Origin: Candidatus Aminicenantota bacterium
GTDB taxonomy: Bacteria; Acidobacteriota; Aminicenantia; S016-38
Direction of reading: 5' to 3'
DNA length: 38,950 nt
Assembly: GCA_027025175.1 (NCBI GenBank)
Contig: JALVRF010000082.1
Coordinates: forward strand, 1 to 38,950
The translations under genes and the position numbers were made by a program. This document shows positions 12,703 to 23,322 of this stretch, in pieces (the first letter of the stretch is position 1; each line of letters starts with the position of its first letter). The notes under the pieces are model-generated. The model made no database searches, had not been told where the DNA came from, and saw only the letters and a program-made list of their open reading frames with translations.

Positions 12703-13130
12703 TGGAAGAGGCCCGAAGGAGGATAGAGGAAAAAAAGGAAAAGGGATACTTTACCGATGAGGAAATAAGGGACATTGAGGAGATGGAACTGAAAATCCTT
12801 CCCGACGAGGCGGAAATACGCTCCTTTTACGAATCCCACCTTTACGGGGAGGTCTACCACCCACCCACAGGGATAAAAAAATGGATAAAGGATAAATTTC
12901 AGGACAAATTCTTCCGGTTCTTTTTCTTCTTCATGAGGCCCCTGCTAACCCCTGAGAAGATTGTAAAAAGCGTGGAATACATAAAAATACTCCACAACAT
13001 TTCCCACAGTCTCGTAACAGAACTTTCCAAACAGAGGCTCAAAACCCTGGAACTGGAGGCCCGGGTAAAATCCTTGGAGGAGAAGGTGGAAATTCTTGAA
13101 AGGAGGATAAGGGCCTACGAGGAAAAATGA
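12684..13130 (+). CDS. small coiled-coil protein of the glycosyltransferase cluster, function unknown
   Basis: I set the start at an ATG preceded by AAAGGAGGGAAA rather than the longer ORF in the track, whose first 62 codons only shadow the GT2 gene. The product is 148 aa. Residues about 1-45 are charged helices (IEKIMEEARRRIEEKKEKGY, DIEEMELKILP). Residues about 60-90 hold a Phe-rich amphipathic or membrane-associated stretch (DKFFRFFFFFMRPLLTP). The last 45 residues are a heptad coiled coil (LEARVKSLEEKVEILERRIRAYEEK). I do not recognise a family. Similar helical modules precede methyltransferases and glycosyltransferases in surface-polysaccharide loci, so a scaffold or chain-length ruler for the adjacent GTs is a guess. 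It overlaps both neighbours. Confidence 0.8.
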   Translation: MDIEKIMEEARRRIEEKKEKGYFTDEEIRDIEEMELKILPDEAEIRSFYESHLYGEVYHPPTGIKKWIKDKFQDKFFRFFFFFMRPLLTPEKIVKSVEYIKILHNISHSLVTELSKQRLKTLELEARVKSLEEKVEILERRIRAYEEK

Positions 13131-14272
13131 AAGTCGCCATAGTGGTACAGAGATACGGACTTAAGATAGCCGGTGGTGCCGAATACCACGCCCGGCTCAT
13201 TGCGGAGCACATGGCAAAACACTGGAATGTGGAGGTCCTCACCACCGATGCCGAGGATTATGTCCGCTGGAAGAGGGGGAATTTCCCAAGGGAGGAGGAA
13301 ATAAATGGGATTCTCGTAAAAAGGTTTCCTGTGGAAAGGGAAAGGGATGTGGTAAAGTTCGGTGCCCTCCAGAGGAGGCTAGAGAGGGAGGAACATACCC
13401 CTGAGGAAGAGGAAATGTGGATTGACGAGGAGGGGCCATACGCTCCTTCCCTCATAAAACACATAAAGAAAAACCGGGAAAAATATGACCTCTTCATTTT
13501 CTTCTCCTACAGGTACTATCAGAGCCTGAGGGGAGTGCCTGTGGCGGGCGAAAAGGCCCTTCTGGTCCCCACTGCAGAACACGACCCTGTACTTTATTTT
13601 CCCTTGGCCAGGAGGGTTTTCAGGAAAACCAGGGGATTTCTCTATAACTCCCACGAGGAAAAAGAACTCATAGAGAAAATCCACGGGATTTCCGCCCCCA
13701 ATGTAGTGGTGGGGGTTGGTATAAAGGAACACAGGGTAAAAGGGGGAAGGTTTAAGGAATATTCCCCCTACATGATTTACATAGGAAGGATTGACAGGAA
13801 CAAGGGGGCAGAGAGGCTTTTTTCCTATTTTCGCAGGTACAGGAGGAAACACCCCGGCCTCAAACTCCTCTTAGTGGGAAAACCCATTATTCCCATACCC
13901 GAGGATGAGGACATTGTTCATTTAGGTTTCCTTCCAGAGGAGGAAAAATGGGAAGCCTTAGCGGATTCCCTTTTCCTGGTTAATCCCTCCCATTTTGAAA
14001 GCCTTTCCATGATTCTCCTTGAGGCATGGTCCATCGCAAAACCGGTTCTTGTTTACGGAGGGTGCGAGGTCCTTCAGGGTCAGGTAAGGAGAAGCGGGGG
14101 AGGTCTTTACTTCAACGATTATTACGAATTTGAGGAAGCGGTGGAGATAATGAGGTCCCAGCCCGGGCTGCTTAAGGCCATGGGGGAGGCAGGAAGGGAA
14201 TATTACCTTGAAAACTACCGATGGGAGGTAATAGAGGGGAAATACCTCCAGATGGCGGAGGCTGTCCTATGA
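13127..14272 (+). CDS. family 4 glycosyltransferase
   Basis: 381 aa GT-B retaining glycosyltransferase. The N-terminal acceptor domain starts KVAIVVQRYGLKIAGGAEYHARLIAEHM, and the C-terminal donor domain has YIGRIDRNKGAERLFSYF, LLLVGKP and the EX7E motif as HFESLSMILLEAW. An acidic insert (about residues 85-110, EEHTPEEEEMWIDEEG) is prominent. It probably uses a nucleotide sugar to extend a cell-surface glycan. The start overlaps the coiled-coil gene by ATGA, and the next GT begins in its last codon. Confidence 0.93.
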   Translation: MKVAIVVQRYGLKIAGGAEYHARLIAEHMAKHWNVEVLTTDAEDYVRWKRGNFPREEEINGILVKRFPVERERDVVKFGALQRRLEREEHTPEEEEMWIDEEGPYAPSLIKHIKKNREKYDLFIFFSYRYYQSLRGVPVAGEKALLVPTAEHDPVLYFPLARRVFRKTRGFLYNSHEEKELIEKIHGISAPNVVVGVGIKEHRVKGGRFKEYSPYMIYIGRIDRNKGAERLFSYFRRYRRKHPGLKLLLVGKPIIPIPEDEDIVHLGFLPEEEKWEALADSLFLVNPSHFESLSMILLEAWSIAKPVLVYGGCEVLQGQVRRSGGGLYFNDYYEFEEAVEIMRSQPGLLKAMGEAGREYYLENYRWEVIEGKYLQMAEAVL

Positions 14273-15327
14273 AGGTTCACCAGATGCTCCCCACTTTCAG
14301 TTATGGGGATGCCATAGGAAACCACACCTTGGCCATAAGGGATACCCTGAGGAAGACCGGATATACTTCTGAAATCTTTGCCTACAACCACGACCCCCGC
14401 CTGGCAGGCGAGGTTCGCTACTTCGCTGAACTGGAGGAGGAAATGGGGCCCGATGACATATTGATTTATCACTATTCCCTCTCCTCCCCGCTTTCCCTGC
14501 TCTACATGGAGCTAAACTGCAGGAAAATTCTGATTTACCACAATATAACCCCCCATCGTTTCTTTTACGACACCAATCCCACTTTAGCCAAGGAATGCTA
14601 CATGGGAAGAAGGTTCCTTCCGGACCTGGCCCCCTATACGGACCTGGCCTTAGGCGACTCCACCTACAACGAAGCGGAACTCAGGGAAGCCGGTTACAAA
14701 AGGACCGGGGTTCTTCCCATAATGATAGATTTTGAAAGGCTAAAAACCCCTCCCAGCCCTTCCTTTTCCCACGCCTTTGCCGACGGAAAGAAAAACATCC
14801 TCTTCGTGGGAAGAATTATAAACAACAAAAAATACGAGGACATAATAAAGGTTTTTCATTACTATCAAAAATACTTCAATCCCGAATCCCGGCTCATCCT
14901 GGCAGGAAATTACCGGGGATTTGAGAGGTATTACATGTCCCTATGGGAACTTGCCAGAAGGCTGGGGATTAGAAACCTCGTCTTTACCGGTCATGTAAGT
15001 TTCAGAGAACTTCTCTCCCTCTACAGGACTGCTGATCTTTTCCTCTGCATGAGCGAGCACGAGGGGTTCTGCGTTCCCCTTGTGGAGGCATTTTTCTTTG
15101 ATGTTCCTGTGGTAGCGTATAAGTGCTGCGCGGTAGAGGAAACCGCCAACGGTGGGGGAATTCTTTTTGACAGGAAGGATTTTCCCATTATCGCATCCAC
15201 CATACACCAGATCCTTTCCCGGGAGGAGTTCAGGCAAGAGGTCATTCAAAGGCAGAGAAAGGCCCTTTTAAGATACGAGAGGGGAAAACTTGAGAAAATC
15301 CTCCTGGCTTTTGTGAGGGGCCTATGA
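14269..15327 (+). CDS. family 4 glycosyltransferase (GDAIGN-type), tandem paralogue 1
   Basis: The track ORF starts 16 codons too early. I place the start at the ATG that overlaps the upstream stop (ATGA), giving 352 aa beginning KVHQMLPTFSYGDAIGNHTL. Donor-domain motifs: ILFVGRIINNKKYEDIIKVF, LILAGNYRGFERY and EX7E in EHEGFCVPLVEAFFF. It aligns along its whole length with the following gene (SxGDAIG, INHNITP/YHNITP, VGR..NNKK/NKKIED, AGNYR, EHEGF..P..EAF), so the pair arose by duplication. Retaining sugar transfer to a surface glycan is likely; donor and acceptor are unknown. Confidence 0.93.
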   Translation: MKVHQMLPTFSYGDAIGNHTLAIRDTLRKTGYTSEIFAYNHDPRLAGEVRYFAELEEEMGPDDILIYHYSLSSPLSLLYMELNCRKILIYHNITPHRFFYDTNPTLAKECYMGRRFLPDLAPYTDLALGDSTYNEAELREAGYKRTGVLPIMIDFERLKTPPSPSFSHAFADGKKNILFVGRIINNKKYEDIIKVFHYYQKYFNPESRLILAGNYRGFERYYMSLWELARRLGIRNLVFTGHVSFRELLSLYRTADLFLCMSEHEGFCVPLVEAFFFDVPVVAYKCCAVEETANGGGILFDRKDFPIIASTIHQILSREEFRQEVIQRQRKALLRYERGKLEKILLAFVRGL

Positions 15328-16394
15328 GGATAGTTCAGTTAGTGCCGGCCTTTTCCAGGGGGGATGCCATAGGGGAAGACGCCTTAGCCTTGGATAATTA
15401 CTTTAGAGTTCAGGGCTTAGAGTCCTGGATTGAGACCCCGGACATAAAAACCCCTCATCCCTCGGTGAGGGAATTGAACTTAAAGGGGCTGGCCTCCCTG
15501 GAAAGGGAAGATGTGGTCATCTACCATACCGCGGTGGCAACCCCCTATGCGGAGGACTTCCTTCAGTTCAGGGCGCGAAAGGTGGTCATAAATCACAACA
15601 TAACCCCCCCTGAATATTACAGGCCCTTTGCACCAGAAATTGCCGAACTTCTTGAGGCCAGCCTCAGGGAACTAAGAGCCTTCGTGGAAAACAAAGAGAA
15701 AATAGACCTTTTTATTGGGGATTCGGATTTCAATTCCCGAATGATAAGGGAAATGGGAGCCCAGGCTGTAACCGTGCCTCTGGCCATAAACTGGGAAAGG
15801 TTCAGGGGCAGGGAGAACCCCTATTTCCGCAGGATTTTCGCTGACCACAAAATAAATTTTCTTTTCGTGGGAAGGGTTGTTCCCAACAAAAAAATTGAGG
15901 ACCTGATAAGGTTCGTTTTCTATTTCAAGGAGATGATAAATCCTGCGGTGAGGCTCATCGTAGCCGGGAATTACCGCGCTCTCCCCAAATACGCCCATTG
16001 CCTTCAGGACCTGGCTTACCGTTTTCACCTTTCCTCGGACGAGGTGGTCTTTACAGGGTGGGTGGAAGAGGAGGAACTTCGGGCTCTTTACAGGGCTGCC
16101 CATGTTTTCGTCTCTGCCAGCGAGCACGAGGGATTTGGGGCGCCCTTCCTGGAAGCCTTTGAGTTTTCCCTTCCTGTCCTCGCCTTTAAAGCAGGCGCAG
16201 TTCCTGAGACCGTGGGTGAAGGGGGAATTTTAATGGAGGATAAAAACCCGGCCCTGTGGGGAGAAGTGGCCAACCTAATCCTGGAAGACGAAGAACTTCG
16301 CTCAGAGTTGATAAAAGGGGGAAAGAAAAGGCTCTCCTATTACAAAAGCCTGAACCCTCCCCACATGCTCCTTAATCTTATAAGAAATCTCTAA
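15324..16394 (+). CDS. family 4 glycosyltransferase (GDAIG-type), tandem paralogue 2
   Basis: 356 aa, begins RIVQLVPAFSRGDAIGEDALAL. Motifs: VVINHNITPPEYY, FLFVGRVVPNKKIEDLI, RLIVAGNYRAL, and EX7E in EHEGFGAPFLEAFEF. It is clearly paralogous to the preceding gene but diverged in the first acceptor-domain third (ETPDIKTPHPSVRELN replaces the FAYNHDPRLA region), which suggests a different acceptor. ATGA overlap with the upstream gene. Its TAA stop overlaps by 2 bases the TAG stop of the convergent comF gene, so the cluster ends with no spacer for a terminator. Confidence 0.93.
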   Translation: MRIVQLVPAFSRGDAIGEDALALDNYFRVQGLESWIETPDIKTPHPSVRELNLKGLASLEREDVVIYHTAVATPYAEDFLQFRARKVVINHNITPPEYYRPFAPEIAELLEASLRELRAFVENKEKIDLFIGDSDFNSRMIREMGAQAVTVPLAINWERFRGRENPYFRRIFADHKINFLFVGRVVPNKKIEDLIRFVFYFKEMINPAVRLIVAGNYRALPKYAHCLQDLAYRFHLSSDEVVFTGWVEEEELRALYRAAHVFVSASEHEGFGAPFLEAFEFSLPVLAFKAGAVPETVGEGGILMEDKNPALWGEVANLILEDEELRSELIKGGKKRLSYYKSLNPPHMLLNLIRNL

Positions 16395-17095
16395 ACGGAA
16401 CGGGCAAGGGTAAGGGCATGGACCTTATGGCCCGCCTTCTTCAAAACCCTGGAGGCTTCGGTGATGGTGGCCCCGGTGGTCCAGACATCATCTATGAGGA
16501 GAACCCTGCTGCAAGGACTGGTTTTCCTTAAAGCGAAACTCCCCCTGGGATTGAGTTTCCTTTTGTGGCGGGGAAGTTCCACCTGAGGGACGGTATATCT
16601 GGACCTGTAAAGCAGTTTTTCCACCGGCAGGCCCCTGAGCTTTGAAAGGCGCCGGGCGAGGAGAAGGATGTGGTCAAATCCCCTTTCCCTTATCCTCTTT
16701 TTATGGGAAGGAAGGGGAACTATGCAGTCCACATCCCATACATCGTCAACCCGGGCGGAAGCGAACTGGGCTAAGGGCTTAGCCAGGTTCTCGTATCCTC
16801 CGTATTTGTAAAGGAGAATGCTCTGGCGAAGGTTTCCCTCATAAAGACCTGCCGAGCGGTGGATTAAAAAGGGTCTTCCTTTCAGACAATCCCCGCAGGT
16901 TATGGAAAGGGCCGAAGGGGAAAAATAGGGTTTTCCGCATACGGGACACATGGATCCTGAATGAAAGGGAAAACCATCAAGGCATTCCCTGCAAATTACC
17001 CTCTCCCCTGGCTTTAAAGGAGAGCCACAGATTTTGCAGGAAGAGGGGAAAATAATCAGTTCCAGTTTTCCTAAGGCCTCAGTAATACTCCTCAC
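16391..17095 (-). CDS. comF: ComF-family phosphoribosyltransferase-like protein
   Basis: ComF/GntX-type protein, used in natural transformation in several bacteria. N-terminal zinc-ribbon cysteines (CKICG, CREC, CPVCG, CGDC) are followed by a type I phosphoribosyltransferase domain with the PRPP loop VLLIDDVWTTGAT and the region DCIVPLPSHKKRIRERGFDH. I prefer a GTG start that overlaps the DksA-like gene by 17 bp; the track uses a TTG 15 codons earlier, which would give a 62 bp overlap. With the GTG the protein is 234 aa, usual for the family. ComF together with a type IV pilus system in the same window is compatible with DNA uptake, though the genes are in different operons. Confidence 0.9.
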   Translation of the reverse strand: MRSITEALGKLELIIFPSSCKICGSPLKPGERVICRECLDGFPFHSGSMCPVCGKPYFSPSALSITCGDCLKGRPFLIHRSAGLYEGNLRQSILLYKYGGYENLAKPLAQFASARVDDVWDVDCIVPLPSHKKRIRERGFDHILLLARRLSKLRGLPVEKLLYRSRYTVPQVELPRHKRKLNPRGSFALRKTSPCSRVLLIDDVWTTGATITEASRVLKKAGHKVHALTLARSV

Positions 17096-17453
17096 TGGCC
17101 TCGGCTTCTCTTTCTTCCTCCAGCCTCTCGGCACACTCAACGCAATAACGGGCCCAGGGCACTGCGGTGAGTCTTTTTACGGATATGGACTTTCCGCATT
17201 CCTCGCAAATACCGTAAGTGCCCTCGTCCATTTTTCTGAGGGCATCCTCTATGTCCTTTAAAATCTCAGCCTCCTTCTCTCCTAAGGCTATCTTGTACTC
17301 CCTGTTAAACTGAAAGGCGGCTTTATCGTAATACTCAATAAGGGTTTCCCCTTCTTCGGAGGTCTCCCTCCCGAGTTCCTCCAGTTTGGATAGGATTTCT
17401 TCCCTCTTCTTGAGGAGTTTCCTTTTAAGTCTTTCCAGATCCCTTTTTTTCAT
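17079..17453 (-). CDS. DksA/TraR-family zinc-finger protein
   Basis: 124 aa. The N-terminal two thirds is a helical coiled coil (KKRDLERLKRKLLKKREEILSKLEEL, then KDIEDALRKMDEGTYG), and the C-terminus has the C4 zinc finger CEECGKSISVKRL...ARYCVEC. This is the DksA/YteA/TraR form. DksA proteins insert the coiled-coil tip into the RNA polymerase secondary channel; the tip acidic DxxDxA motif of E. coli DksA is replaced here by EYYDKAAF-type residues, so activity like DksA is not certain. A good SD (AGGAGGGAAGC) precedes the ATG, just after rlmH. Confidence 0.92.
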   Translation of the reverse strand: MKKRDLERLKRKLLKKREEILSKLEELGRETSEEGETLIEYYDKAAFQFNREYKIALGEKEAEILKDIEDALRKMDEGTYGICEECGKSISVKRLTAVPWARYCVECAERLEEEREAEASEEYY

Positions 17454-17463
17454 GCTTCCCTCC

Positions 17464-17880
17464 TTATTTCGGATATGGGTGGGAAAATATTATGCACAAT
17501 GCTCTGAAAATCTGTTCTGCCAACATAATCCTCGCCACTTCATGCGAAAAGGTCATTTTTGAAAGTGAGATAATTTTAGCACAGCGGTCAACGGAGAAAC
17601 CCCCGGCTCCCCCCACCACGAATACTATGTTTTTCCCCTGACCCATGAGCCCTTTAAGAAACCGGGCAAAGCCCCGGGAATCCATCTCTTCCCCTTCAGG
17701 GGAAAGGCCCACCAGGATGGAATTGGGATATCGCCTCTGCAGTTGCTGGCAGGAGGTAACATCCTTTATGTAATCAATTCTGCAGGGCAGGAATTTTCCA
17801 GCCATTTTACAGAACCTTTCGCATATTTCCCTGCCCTGGGCCAGTTTTGTCCTTCCCCCGAAAACCAGGATTATCTTCAC
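17464..17880 (-). CDS. rlmH: 23S rRNA (pseudouridine-1915-N3) methyltransferase
   Basis: SPOUT-fold enzyme that methylates pseudouridine 1915 in helix 69 of 23S rRNA on the 70S ribosome. Family features: LVGLSPEGEEMDSRGFARFL, the SAM-binding knot loop VFVVGGAGGF, and the C-terminal LSKMTFSHEVARIMLAEQIFRAL. The C-terminus reads HPYPK where most RlmH end in PYHK/R, so the final His, part of the substrate site, is changed to Pro. Length 138 aa is slightly shorter than the usual 155-160. It overlaps the upstream NtrC-like gene by ATGA. Confidence 0.9.
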   Translation of the reverse strand: MKIILVFGGRTKLAQGREICERFCKMAGKFLPCRIDYIKDVTSCQQLQRRYPNSILVGLSPEGEEMDSRGFARFLKGLMGQGKNIVFVVGGAGGFSVDRCAKIISLSKMTFSHEVARIMLAEQIFRALCIIFSHPYPK

Positions 17881-18728
17881 CCCTTAAGAATCCTCCTCAG
17901 GGTTTTCCTTGTTATCCCCAGGGCTTTAGCAGCCCTGGTCTTATTGCCGCCGAACCTTTCAAGAACCTTCCTTACATAAATCCTTTCCATCTCCCTCAGG
18001 GGAATAACATCCGGGGAGGATTCCCAGGAAAAATCCATAGCGGGCTCCCCGGTTTCCTTTTTCCCCAAGGAAATTTCCCTCTCAATGAAATTCCGCAGTT
18101 GCCGAACATTTCCAGGCCAGGGATAGGAAACAAGGGCTTTCCTTCTGCTTATCTTTATCCTTCCCATGGCAAAGTATTCCGCCAGGGGAATTATATCCCC
18201 CTTCCTTTCCCTGAGAGGGGGGATTCTTACGCAAACCGGGAAAAGGTGGACGAATTTCGGGTGAATTTTACCCCGGGACGCTGCCTCTTCCAGGGGTAAT
18301 TGACCGGAGGCTACCAGAAGGAAGGAAGAATTCCTTTCCTCTGTCCCCCCTAAGGGAATGAACCTTCCTGTTTCCAGGGCGTCAAAAATTTTAATCTGAA
18401 CATCCATGGGAAGGCTATCCAGGAGGTCAAGATAAAGGGTTCCTTCATTGGCCCTTTCCAGAAAACCCTCCCTGGCCTTCTCGGCGCCTGAGAAAGCCCC
18501 TTCCAGGTGACCGAAAAACTGGGACTCGGCCAGAGCAGGGGATATGCTGTAGGCTCCCACCTTCAGAAACGCTCCCTTCCTCCCTGAGGCCTCGTGTATG
18601 TAAAGGGCGAAGGTGTCCTTTCCCGCTCCGCTCTCCCCCCAGAGGTAAACCTTTACCCCCAAGGAGGCATATTTTCTGATCTCGTGGAGGAGTTTCTTAG
18701 TAAGGATGTCCTCAGCGATTATTTTCAT
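17877..18728 (-). CDS. NtrC-like AAA+ protein with Fis-type HTH, catalytically degenerate
   Basis: 283 aa, no receiver or PAS domain. The AAA+ domain of sigma54 activators is plain: Walker A GESGAGKD (31-38), FFGHLEGAFSGA (72-82, where GAFTGA is normal), GTLYLD (96-101), PPLRERKGDI, and the sensor II region WPGNVRQLRNF (about 204-214), followed by a Fis-type HTH NKTRAAKALGITRKTLRRI. Three key features are altered. The Walker B Glu after Asp101 is Leu (LYLDLLD instead of LFLDEIGD). The FREDLYYRLNV block with the arginine fingers is replaced by HPKFVHLFPV. Sensor I Asn/Thr is SG. ATP hydrolysis is probably lost or weak, so it may act as a DNA-binding regulator without sigma54 remodelling. It lies between rsfS and rlmH, overlapping both. 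Confidence 0.88.
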   Translation of the reverse strand: MKIIAEDILTKKLLHEIRKYASLGVKVYLWGESGAGKDTFALYIHEASGRKGAFLKVGAYSISPALAESQFFGHLEGAFSGAEKAREGFLERANEGTLYLDLLDSLPMDVQIKIFDALETGRFIPLGGTEERNSSFLLVASGQLPLEEAASRGKIHPKFVHLFPVCVRIPPLRERKGDIIPLAEYFAMGRIKISRRKALVSYPWPGNVRQLRNFIEREISLGKKETGEPAMDFSWESSPDVIPLREMERIYVRKVLERFGGNKTRAAKALGITRKTLRRILKG

Positions 18729-19052
18729 CTATCCTGTAAAGTTTTCCGTCCATCCAAAGGGATTCCAGGTCATAATATCTTCTCTTTTCTTCGGTGAAGA
18801 TGTGGACCACGAAATCCCCGTAATCCAGGAGTATCCACTCACCTCTCTCTTCACCCTCAACCCCTAAGGGCCTTGCTTCCACCCTTTGTTGAAGAAAATC
18901 ACTCAGGGTCTGGGAGTGGCGGGTGGAAGAGGCAGTGGCTATTAAAAAATAATCGGTAAAGGAGCATATCCCTTTAAGGTCAAGGACCACCAGGTCCAGG
19001 GCTTTCTTCTCCCGCAGGGCCTGGAGGGAAGTTTCAATTTCCCTGGGAAACT

Positions 19053-19056
<4 letters not shown>
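18712..19056 (-). CDS. rsfS: ribosomal silencing factor RsfS
   Basis: 114 aa DUF143/Iojap protein that binds uL14 on the 50S subunit and blocks subunit joining under low nutrients. Conserved blocks: LVVLDLKGICSFTDYFLIATASSTRHSQTLSDF, EERGEWILLDYGDFVVHIFTEEKRRYYDLE and LW at the end of the domain. The order nadD-rsfS is very common in bacteria. It overlaps nadD by ATGA and the NtrC-like gene by 17 bp. Confidence 0.95.
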
Positions 19057-20910
<1,854 letters not shown>

Positions 20911-20921
<11 letters not shown>

Positions 20922-21237
20922 TTTCTCCCCCTATAATCTCTTCTATCCTTATAACCGTAAGGTACTGTCTGTGGCCCTGTTTTTTCTTGTATCCTGTTTT
21001 GGCCTTCTTCTTAAAGACTATGACTTTGGGGCCCCTTTTCTGGGCAAGGATGGTGGCCTTCACCCTGGCTCCCTCCACAAAGGGCTTTCCAATCCTGGCC
21101 TTGCCCTCTCCTCCTACAAAAAGCACCCTATCAATCTCCACGGTTGCCCCTTCCTTCCCCTCTATCTTTTCCACCTCAATGACCTGCCCTTTTTCCACCA
21201 TGTACTGTTTTCCACCGGTTTCTATTATGGCAAACAT
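20911..21237 (-). CDS. rplU: 50S ribosomal protein L21
   Basis: bL21, 108 aa from the ATG at 21237, beginning [17 protein letters not shown]. The track ORF starts 12 codons upstream, but the conserved N-terminus and the SD-like GGAGTGAGG support this start. [25 protein letters not shown] is the family 23S rRNA-binding segment. A promoter reaching into the preceding gene (21264-21292) should drive rplU-rpmA-obg independently of gyrA. Confidence 0.96.
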
Positions 21238-21241
21238 TTCC

Positions 21242-22876
21242 TCACTCCTTGTTTTTTCGCCTAATCCTAACAAATTTTACACTTCCGGTCAAGTCACTCC
21301 TGTAGAGAGAAACCAGAGCCTTCCCCAGTTCCCCGGCAGCACCGGTATAAAACATGGCCCCCCTCCCCCTTCCATCCCTGTCCCTCCATTCGTATATGCA
21401 CATGTCCCTTAGAGACCTCTTAGCCAGATACTCAAGGCGAAGCCTCGCTTCTTTCTTTAAACCTGATCTTATCATGGCCCTTATCACCCTTCCTCCTATC
21501 CAGTCCCAGTCCCCACCGTTCTGGTAATGCCAGGGTTTCATAAGATGGAATTTAAAGAACCCCGGAGGATAGGGAGGGAGGAGGGTAAAGCCTGGGGAAC
21601 GGAGGGAAAATTCCTTCAATTTTTTATCAAGAACCCTGAAAAACCTGATGCTCTGCTGAGGGGTTAAGAAACCTGCGAGAATGGCCTCAGCGTTTCCTCC
21701 GGTGGCCAGGATATTTCTTTCCAAGGAAAGATATTCCGGATGGCCTAGGACCCTGTGAATGAGGAAATAACCCTTATCCTTAAGATAAAGGTATTTGAGG
21801 GAATTTTCCTTTACCCTCCTGGATATGGCCTCAGCCGGGAAGGAAACCTGCGGAGGGCATTGTTTTTTCATTTCCAGGAAGGCCTTTAGGGCCTGATAGA
21901 ACTTGGCCTGGGTGTATATGCCCACCACCCTCAGGTCCCCCTCCCTGTAATGCACCGGATCGGCAGGATGCTCTAAGGAAACATCCCCCCAGTCCGCCTT
22001 GAATCCTGACCAGATAAGGCCGAAACTTCGGCTCCTTCTGTTATCCCATAACCACTTAAGAGCCAGGGCCAGACGGTCTATTATTCTCCTTCCCCTCAGG
22101 GTCTTACAGAGCCACCGGGGATTTTCCCTGGCAACGGAATAGGCAGCAAGGACTAAGGAGGATTCCTGGTCCGACGAGACCGTGTTTTTTCCCCATCGGT
22201 AATCAGGACTTATCCAGTCGCTTATCTCCCCATCCTGGTGTTGAAACCGCAGGAAGAGTTCAACCATGGTCTCAAGGGAGGAGAGGGGATAGTGGAATTT
22301 CGCATAATCCATGGCCGTGGCCAGGTCCCTTATCCACAACTGGGGATAATTGCTCCCCGGGGAAAATCCGAAAAGAGCCTGCCCCTTTCTTATTTCGCCG
22401 TTGGCAAAGGTAAGGCGAAGAAGATGCTGAAACCTGTTCCAGAGGGGCTCCTTCAAAGGGAGATATTTTCCACTAAAATCCCTCTGAAAATCAGGGGAGA
22501 GAAGGTCCTTTACCCTTACGAAAACCCTGCAGGGCTTCCAGCCCCTTTCCCTTCCCCAGAACTTTCCCTCCTTTAAAAGTTCAAATTCCGCCTGGTATTC
22601 CCCTGGGGGGACCGGGAAGAAAACAGTGACAGAGAGGAACTTATTCTCCACCACAAAGATGAACCTGGGGTTTTCGTAGCGGAAAATTTTCCCCTTCCTG
22701 TCATAAAGGTGATAGGAAAAAGAGAGACCCTTCACTTCCTCCGGGTTTATTCCCTGCGGGTAAAATTTCAGCCTTACCGCCTGGCCCTGATACAGGACTA
22801 TCTTCCTGGAGGGACACTTCAGGGATGCGGATAAAAGGGAAAGGGAAAAAAGGAGAAAAACTGAAAATTTTCTCAA
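21242..22876 (-). CDS. exported (alpha/alpha)6-barrel glycoside hydrolase-like protein
   Basis: 544 aa from a TTG that overlaps the nudix stop (TTGA) and has AGGGA just before it; the track start lies 18 codons inside the nudix gene. An N-terminal signal peptide ([20 protein letters not shown]) ends in a possible lipobox Cys. Residues about 25-130 form a beta-rich domain. The rest is helical with six-hairpin glycosidase features: [20 protein letters not shown] (a WxRD pattern as in GH15), [43 protein letters not shown], and [17 protein letters not shown]. The pattern is closest to GH15/GH63/GH100-type enzymes acting on glucosides or related sugars, but I cannot assign the family or the catalytic acids. 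It is an odd insert between gyrA-nudix and rplU. Confidence 0.75.
21264..21292 (-). promoter_or_regulatory. sigma70-type promoter of rplU-rpmA-obg
   Basis: On the minus strand TTGACC (21292-21287), a 17-base spacer and TAGGAT (21269-21264) lie inside the 3' end of the glycosidase-like gene. The predicted start is near 21257, leaving a leader of about 20 bases with AAGGAG. Spacing is ideal and it precedes a highly expressed ribosomal gene. There is no room for an L21 RNA leader structure. Confidence 0.7.
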
Positions 22877-23322
22877 TCCCTGAAAATTTCCGAAATTTCC
22901 TGGCAGGTTATTCCCCTGTTTTTCATCCACTCCCTGAATTTCAGATAGTGGGAAATTATTCTTCCGTGGTCAAAGGCCAGGGGAGGTAAATCCCGGGGGT
23001 CAAATAGCCTGGCCTGCAGGGCATCATCCCCTCCCCGGGGCTGGCCTTCAGCCTTAGCGATGAAAACCAGGGTGGCAGTGTGGAACCTGGGGTCCCTTTC
23101 CGGCGAGGAATAAAGGTGCATCTGACAGAGAAGTTCCACATCCAGGCCTGTTTCCTCCCTGGCTTCCCTCAGGGCAGCCTCCTCGTAGCTCTCCCCGTAT
23201 TCCACGAATCCTCCTGGAAGAGCCCAACCAAAGGGAGGATTTTTTCTTTTCACCAGGACTATTTTCCCCCCCACCTCAATTATTATGTCAACTGTAGGGT
23301 AAGGATTCCTGGGCTGACTCAT
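22873..23322 (-). CDS. Nudix hydrolase (ADP-ribose pyrophosphatase-like)
   Basis: 149 aa. The Nudix box is complete: [25 protein letters not shown]. The N-terminus [30 protein letters not shown] is typical of small housekeeping Nudix enzymes that cleave ADP-ribose or oxidised nucleotides. The ATG has an AAGGAGAAAA SD and overlaps the end of gyrA by 35 bp. The exact substrate cannot be set by sequence alone; ADP-ribose is the usual one for this pattern. Confidence 0.93.

Follow-up and report, generated by a model that had tools for sequence, protein, structure and literature searches.

The window analysed here is a 38,950-nucleotide stretch of DNA from a Candidatus Aminicenantota bacterium (contig JALVRF010000082.1), in which a gene for an AAA+ protein resembling sigma54 enhancer-binding proteins (EBPs) lies between rsfS and rlmH. 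The genes of the operon in which it sits and the putative promoter ahead of them are as follows.

21264-21292, minus strand: putative sigma70-type promoter (TTGACC-17-TAGGAT, extended -10), its elements alignable across six family genomes
20911-21240, minus strand: rplU (L21; Pfam L21), first gene downstream of the conserved promoter
20670-20921, minus strand: rpmA (L27; Pfam L27)
19670-20665, minus strand: obgE (Pfam Obg)
19053-19673, minus strand: nadD (Pfam NadD)
18712-19056, minus strand: rsfS, ribosome silencing factor (Pfam RsfS)
17877-18728, minus strand: rsfS-linked EBP-like AAA+ gene, 283 aa, ATG start (AAA+ domain, lid, Fis HTH)
17464-17880, minus strand: rlmH, SPOUT rRNA methyltransferase (Pfam SPOUT methyltransferase)
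17079-17453, minus strand: traR, DksA/TraR zinc-finger protein (Pfam zf-dskA_traR)
16391-17140, minus strand: comF-like gene (Pfam double-zinc-ribbon/phosphoribosyltransferase)

The order is rplU-rpmA-obgE-nadD-rsfS-EBP-rlmH-traR-comF. An earlier reading made from the sequence alone (the sequence-only reading) had described the EBP-like gene as overlapping both neighbors, with a DksA/TraR-like gene and comF downstream; the overlaps are indeed present, spanning 17 nt with rsfS (18712-18728) and 4 nt with rlmH (GTGA, 17877-17880), and Pfam matches bear out both downstream genes. The slot from rplU to rlmH is conserved among relatives, many of which also possess traR and comF, and because the genes overlap and the slot is conserved, the EBP-like gene is probably co-expressed with this ribosome-assembly operon. 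RsfS is a ribosome silencing factor and RlmH an rRNA methyltransferase; the linkage is to the ribosome-assembly operon in general, and a regulatory tie to ribosome silencing may be read from position only. Adjoining the operon on the opposite strand are three consecutive ORFs (13127-16394) that, judged by eye, resemble glycosyltransferases. A 562-aa ORF with no Pfam match lies just before rplU (21242-22930), and two relatives (L043, L045) have similar ORFs at that position. In genomes G006 and G004, a full-length EBP of approximately 440 aa (L046 and L048) is encoded divergently beside the operon start, upstream of rplU.

Sigma54 activators are ATP-hydrolysis machines whose GAFTGA loop contacts sigma54. 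The window protein matches Sigma54_activat (PF00158) at residues 4-156 with 125.3 bits against a cut-off of 20.2, AAA_lid_14 with 42 bits and HTH_8 with 48.6 bits, and its closest solved relatives are NtrC-family activators. It possesses no sensory domain, as had been claimed. The residues that bear on its activity, located by alignment except for the last, which comes from Pfam, map to the following positions.

18618-18638, minus strand: Walker A, GESGAGK, residues 31-37
18483-18500, minus strand: L1 loop of GAFTGA type, GAFSGA, residues 77-82
18423-18428, minus strand: Walker B, D101-L102, Asp present and catalytic Glu replaced by Leu
18300-18311, minus strand: sensor I position, ASGQ (140-143), Thr-Asn gone
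18246-18263, minus strand: arginine-finger block replaced, H156...H161 for R162/R168 of PspF
18102-18113, minus strand: sensor II, GNVR, residues 206-209
17892-17999, minus strand: Fis-type helix-turn-helix (HTH_8), residues ~244-279

Both halves of the sequence-only description of this protein held up under Pfam and alignment: Walker A, GAFSGA, sensor II and the Fis HTH are all present, and the Walker B Glu, sensor I and the arginine fingers are all lost. To these losses we add one that it had not recorded, namely the switch Asn N64 of the glutamate switch (PspF numbering, here and below), which is Gly in the window protein. PspF E108 corresponds to L102, sensor I ATN reads ASG/Q such that N149 is absent, and FRxDLYYRL reads IHPKFVHLF, placing H156 and H161 at R162 and R168; the equivalents of K42, D107 (D101) and R227 are present. 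The HTH is intact and the protein ends shortly after the recognition helix. Overall, the protein has the Sigma54_activat domain, Walker A Lys, sensor II Arg, GAFTGA-type loop and Fis-type HTH of an EBP and lacks three defining catalytic features, these being the Walker B Glu, the sensor I Asn and the two arginine fingers. Loss of GAFTGA, the hallmark of sigma70-acting EBPs, is not seen, as GAFSGA is present. An AlphaFold2 model built from a three-row alignment had a pLDDT of 53.6, too poor to use.

Strong matches to the protein were found in 42 of the 142 genomes of the class that were searched, and all 42 adjoin rsfS or rlmH. All six same-family genomes carry an orthologue (52-87% identity; one at 87% is from Candidatus Aminicenantes). 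In families f2, f3 and f5 the orthologue always adjoins rsfS and then, where the stretch reaches, rlmH; at the rsfS locus of families f4, f7, f8, f9 and f10 the EBP gene is absent. E108 and N149 are missing from every one of the 42 orthologues, comprising 32 found first and 10 fetched later as a held-out test, of which 10/10 lack both residues and 10/10 lie beside rsfS or rlmH. As controls we used 50 EBPs, PspF and 49 from the same class whose genes do not lie by rsfS: E or D occupies position 108 in 50/50, N149 is present in 49/50 and the full catalytic set in 48/50. The losses common to the class orthologues appear in only 0-2 of 50 controls and exceed what chance would give. In a tree built with the catalytic columns removed, the first 32 class sequences form one clade (99/97) apart from the 50 ordinary EBPs. 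The L1 Thr is replaced by Ser in half of the class, and GAFSGA also occurs in one of the 50 controls. Most members of f5 have Gln at 108 together with D107N and N149D. Among these f5 orthologues (L084-L128, L239-L248) the Walker B Asp to Asn change is paired with the sensor I Asn to Asp change in nearly all, and two sequences (L097, L244) combine D107, Q108 and D149, as an intermediate would.

We therefore reject a single decayed copy, the outcome that would have undone the sequence-only reading, within the class. Of the two losses whose conservation it proposed to test, that of E108 is conserved throughout the class, as is that of N149, and that of the arginine fingers is restricted to the window's family and two others (together f1, f2 and f3). 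Pairwise dN/dS of the gene is 0.11-0.23, like that of rlmH, nadD and obgE, which identifies its product as a maintained protein under purifying selection.

The rsfS loci of other Acidobacteriota classes often have an EBP in the same slot. Among 199 genomes of the phylum, rsfS-linked EBPs occur in 23 further families, yielding 33 usable sequences that, with 32 from the Aminicenantes class, make a set of 65 linked EBPs; several families, both in the class and elsewhere in the phylum, lack the linked gene. By this comparison the rsfS-adjacent slot is older than the Aminicenantes class. A tree that places all linked EBPs in one clade is not rejected (p-AU 0.456), and the free tree does not show such a clade outright. 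Outside the class, 8/33 have the full catalytic set, 20/33 have E or D at 108 and 9/33 have N149. Given the intact members and those with an acidic residue at 108, the ancestor of the linked EBPs was probably an ordinary intact EBP, and the likely history is one of repeated loss of hydrolysis residues that became complete in Aminicenantes. E108 underwent six or more state changes in the linked genes and none in the unlinked ones, and the complete catalytic set is found in only 8/65 linked EBPs versus 48/50 controls.

By contrast, the Walker A Lys (K42), in the motif whose retention the sequence-only reading proposed to test, and the sensor II Arg (R227) are each present in 65/65, and the L1 loop, GA[FY][TS][GDN]A, is present in 40 of the 45 linked EBPs that lost E108. 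Arginine fingers remain in 54/65; both f5 and the families beyond the class retain them. A few linked members, from families f12, f38 and f47, have a decayed L1 loop. Three of the f12 and f38 sequences (L180, L200, L201) read GTATDV or GVATGV at L1 and MGG or ISG at Walker B, and may be the linked EBPs furthest from sigma54. A Gemmatimonadota match (L042) considered as a distant orthologue was rejected: it is an ordinary response regulator, and its surroundings contain no rsfS. The repeated loss of hydrolysis residues with binding residues kept points to a conserved regulator whose action would depend on ATP binding and not on hydrolysis. The sequence-only interpretation is partly supported: by its residues the protein is a hydrolysis-incompetent EBP, and it is kept under purifying selection and locked to rsfS and rlmH, but the 8/33 intact orthologues outside the class restrict how far this extends.

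Our preferred explanation, which we consider reasonably probable, is that the window protein is a DNA-bound regulator that binds ATP and does not hydrolyze it. From the residues, we infer for it an absence of hydrolysis together with ATP binding, DNA binding and polymerase contact. The stand-alone EBP family to which it belongs, encoded between rsfS and rlmH across Acidobacteriota, has repeatedly given up its hydrolysis residues while retaining, at the residue level, those for ATP binding, the RNA polymerase-contacting L1 loop and the DNA-binding HTH. The switch would be read by ATP binding, in that nucleotide-bound protein would adopt or assemble into a DNA-bound form, and this form might touch RNA polymerase via the L1 loop but would be unable to power open-complex formation. 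Such a protein would serve as a clamp, a competitor or a non-catalytic partner of hydrolyzing EBPs, or it would regulate its own or other promoters without hydrolysis; in either case it would not be a sigma54 activator of the normal kind. Since the arginine fingers are gone in the window's family, ring-type subunit coupling is probably weakened there.

Which sigma factor such a protein would serve is a question on which the genomic context points two ways. The search for rpoN proposed in the sequence-only reading located the gene in the same genome and in 59/60 relatives, and its presence is non-discriminating because it is nearly universal; the genome also encodes ten ordinary EBPs. Sigma54 promoter motifs are not in excess in the window (7 found versus 11.4 expected), and the conserved TTGAC-N17-extended -10 element stands directly before rplU in six genomes, so the protein has no known sigma54 target. 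Should the protein act on its own operon, these observations favor sigma70, whereas the retained L1 loop speaks for sigma54 contact elsewhere. The sigma70 branch of the general ATP-binding, non-hydrolyzing reading, in which the protein, bound to ATP and DNA, would be a repressor or activator at sigma70 promoters, beginning with that of its own ribosome-assembly operon, with L1 kept for other reasons, is a real possibility though not the one we would bet on. It is in keeping with that promoter, with the intact HTH and with the precedents of R. capsulatus NtrC and VpsR (PMC10274813), but known sigma70-type EBPs lack the GAFTGA loop that 40 of 45 members without E108 retain, and no convincing operator palindrome was found among inverted repeats around the operon and its promoter.

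Rather unlikely is a role as a non-catalytic subunit or antagonist, forming mixed rings with, or competing for sites against, a hydrolyzing paralogue. One candidate is the response regulator L010 on contig 69. Of the intact EBPs in this genome it matches the window protein best (41%), and its HTH is also the most similar there to that of the window protein (59%). Interacting EBP paralogues have reportedly been described in an Azotobacter study and for HrpR/HrpS, and linked dimers of wild-type and E108Q PspF stay active on pre-opened DNA (PMC4132715). However, with the arginine fingers lost in the window's family, the interface shared with an active EBP would be damaged, and close relatives of L010 are seen only in f1 whereas the linked EBP is phylum-wide. 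L010 (positions 1132-2370) has a histidine kinase gene just upstream and, like the window protein, ends soon after its recognition helix.

We think it improbable that the ATPase is alive through alternative residues (D149 in f5, His at R168 in f1) that replace the usual catalytic set. The D107N/N149D swap in f5 might restore a carboxylate near the nucleotide, and His occupies the R168 position in 7/7 of f1, but outside f5 there is no consistent carboxylate at 108 or 149, and the residues found in their place vary (L, M, S, G, Q, H, R, A), a pattern in keeping with loss and not with substitution. Pseudogene drift, in which the ATPase decays because the protein no longer matters, would account for the repeated catalytic losses and the patchy absence of the gene, but is very improbable and was rejected on the dN/dS values, in line with a frame open and in place in 42/42 class genomes (one gene split between two contigs) and the invariant Walker A Lys and sensor II Arg.

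The ATP-binding, non-hydrolyzing reading can be carried further, to a phylum-wide former sigma54 activator that would have permanently become an ATP-binding, non-hydrolyzing RNA polymerase clamp and, by reading ATP, would tie to transcription the state of the operon for ribosome assembly and silencing; this extension is speculative and we incline against it. By sequence, what is new here is a protein of EBP descent, encoded at a conserved position in an operon, from which three catalytic features that define EBPs are missing. If our reading is true, a natural lineage with the RNA polymerase loop and ATP pocket but without hydrolysis residues would reveal what portions of the cycle can function alone, and Acidobacteriota would possess a regulator tied by position to rsfS. 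Intact and dead members mixed at one genomic address provide a ready series for testing. We found no description of an rsfS-linked EBP family in the open literature searched, a scope outside which most subscription papers fall.

Among known systems, the window protein resembles PspF and other sigma54 EBPs (PF00158) in its AAA+ domain by sequence, Walker A, L1 loop, sensor II, lid and Fis HTH and, like PspF, has no N-terminal sensory domain. It differs from them in lacking the Walker B Glu, switch Asn and sensor I Asn, in the loss of both arginine fingers in its family, and in being encoded in a ribosome-assembly operon. The closest parallel to its catalytic state is a laboratory mutant: PspF E108Q retains <1% ATPase activity and, as a constitutive hexamer with 30-fold tighter ATP binding, engages RNAP-sigma54, indicating that ATP binding without normal hydrolysis suffices for ring formation and polymerase engagement, although DNA opening is poor (PMC4132715). 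The sequence-only reading had listed the missing residues among those needed to open sigma54 promoters; engagement of sigma54-RNAP does not strictly depend on the Walker B Glu, and it therefore does not follow from loss of this residue that the protein cannot work with sigma54 (PMC4132715). Like E108Q, most linked EBPs that lost the Walker B Glu retain L1, and most f5 members carry the identical Gln; unlike in E108Q, the loss is natural, conserved and combined with further losses. A second parallel is offered by the sigma70-acting EBPs R. capsulatus NtrC, Caulobacter NtrC and VpsR, which lack GAFTGA; R. capsulatus NtrC is stated to require ATP binding and not hydrolysis, whereas Caulobacter NtrC still requires its Walker B (PMC10274813). 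The linked family would share with them an EBP fold without normal sigma54 activation, but by the opposite route, retaining the GAFTGA-type loop and losing the catalytic residues.
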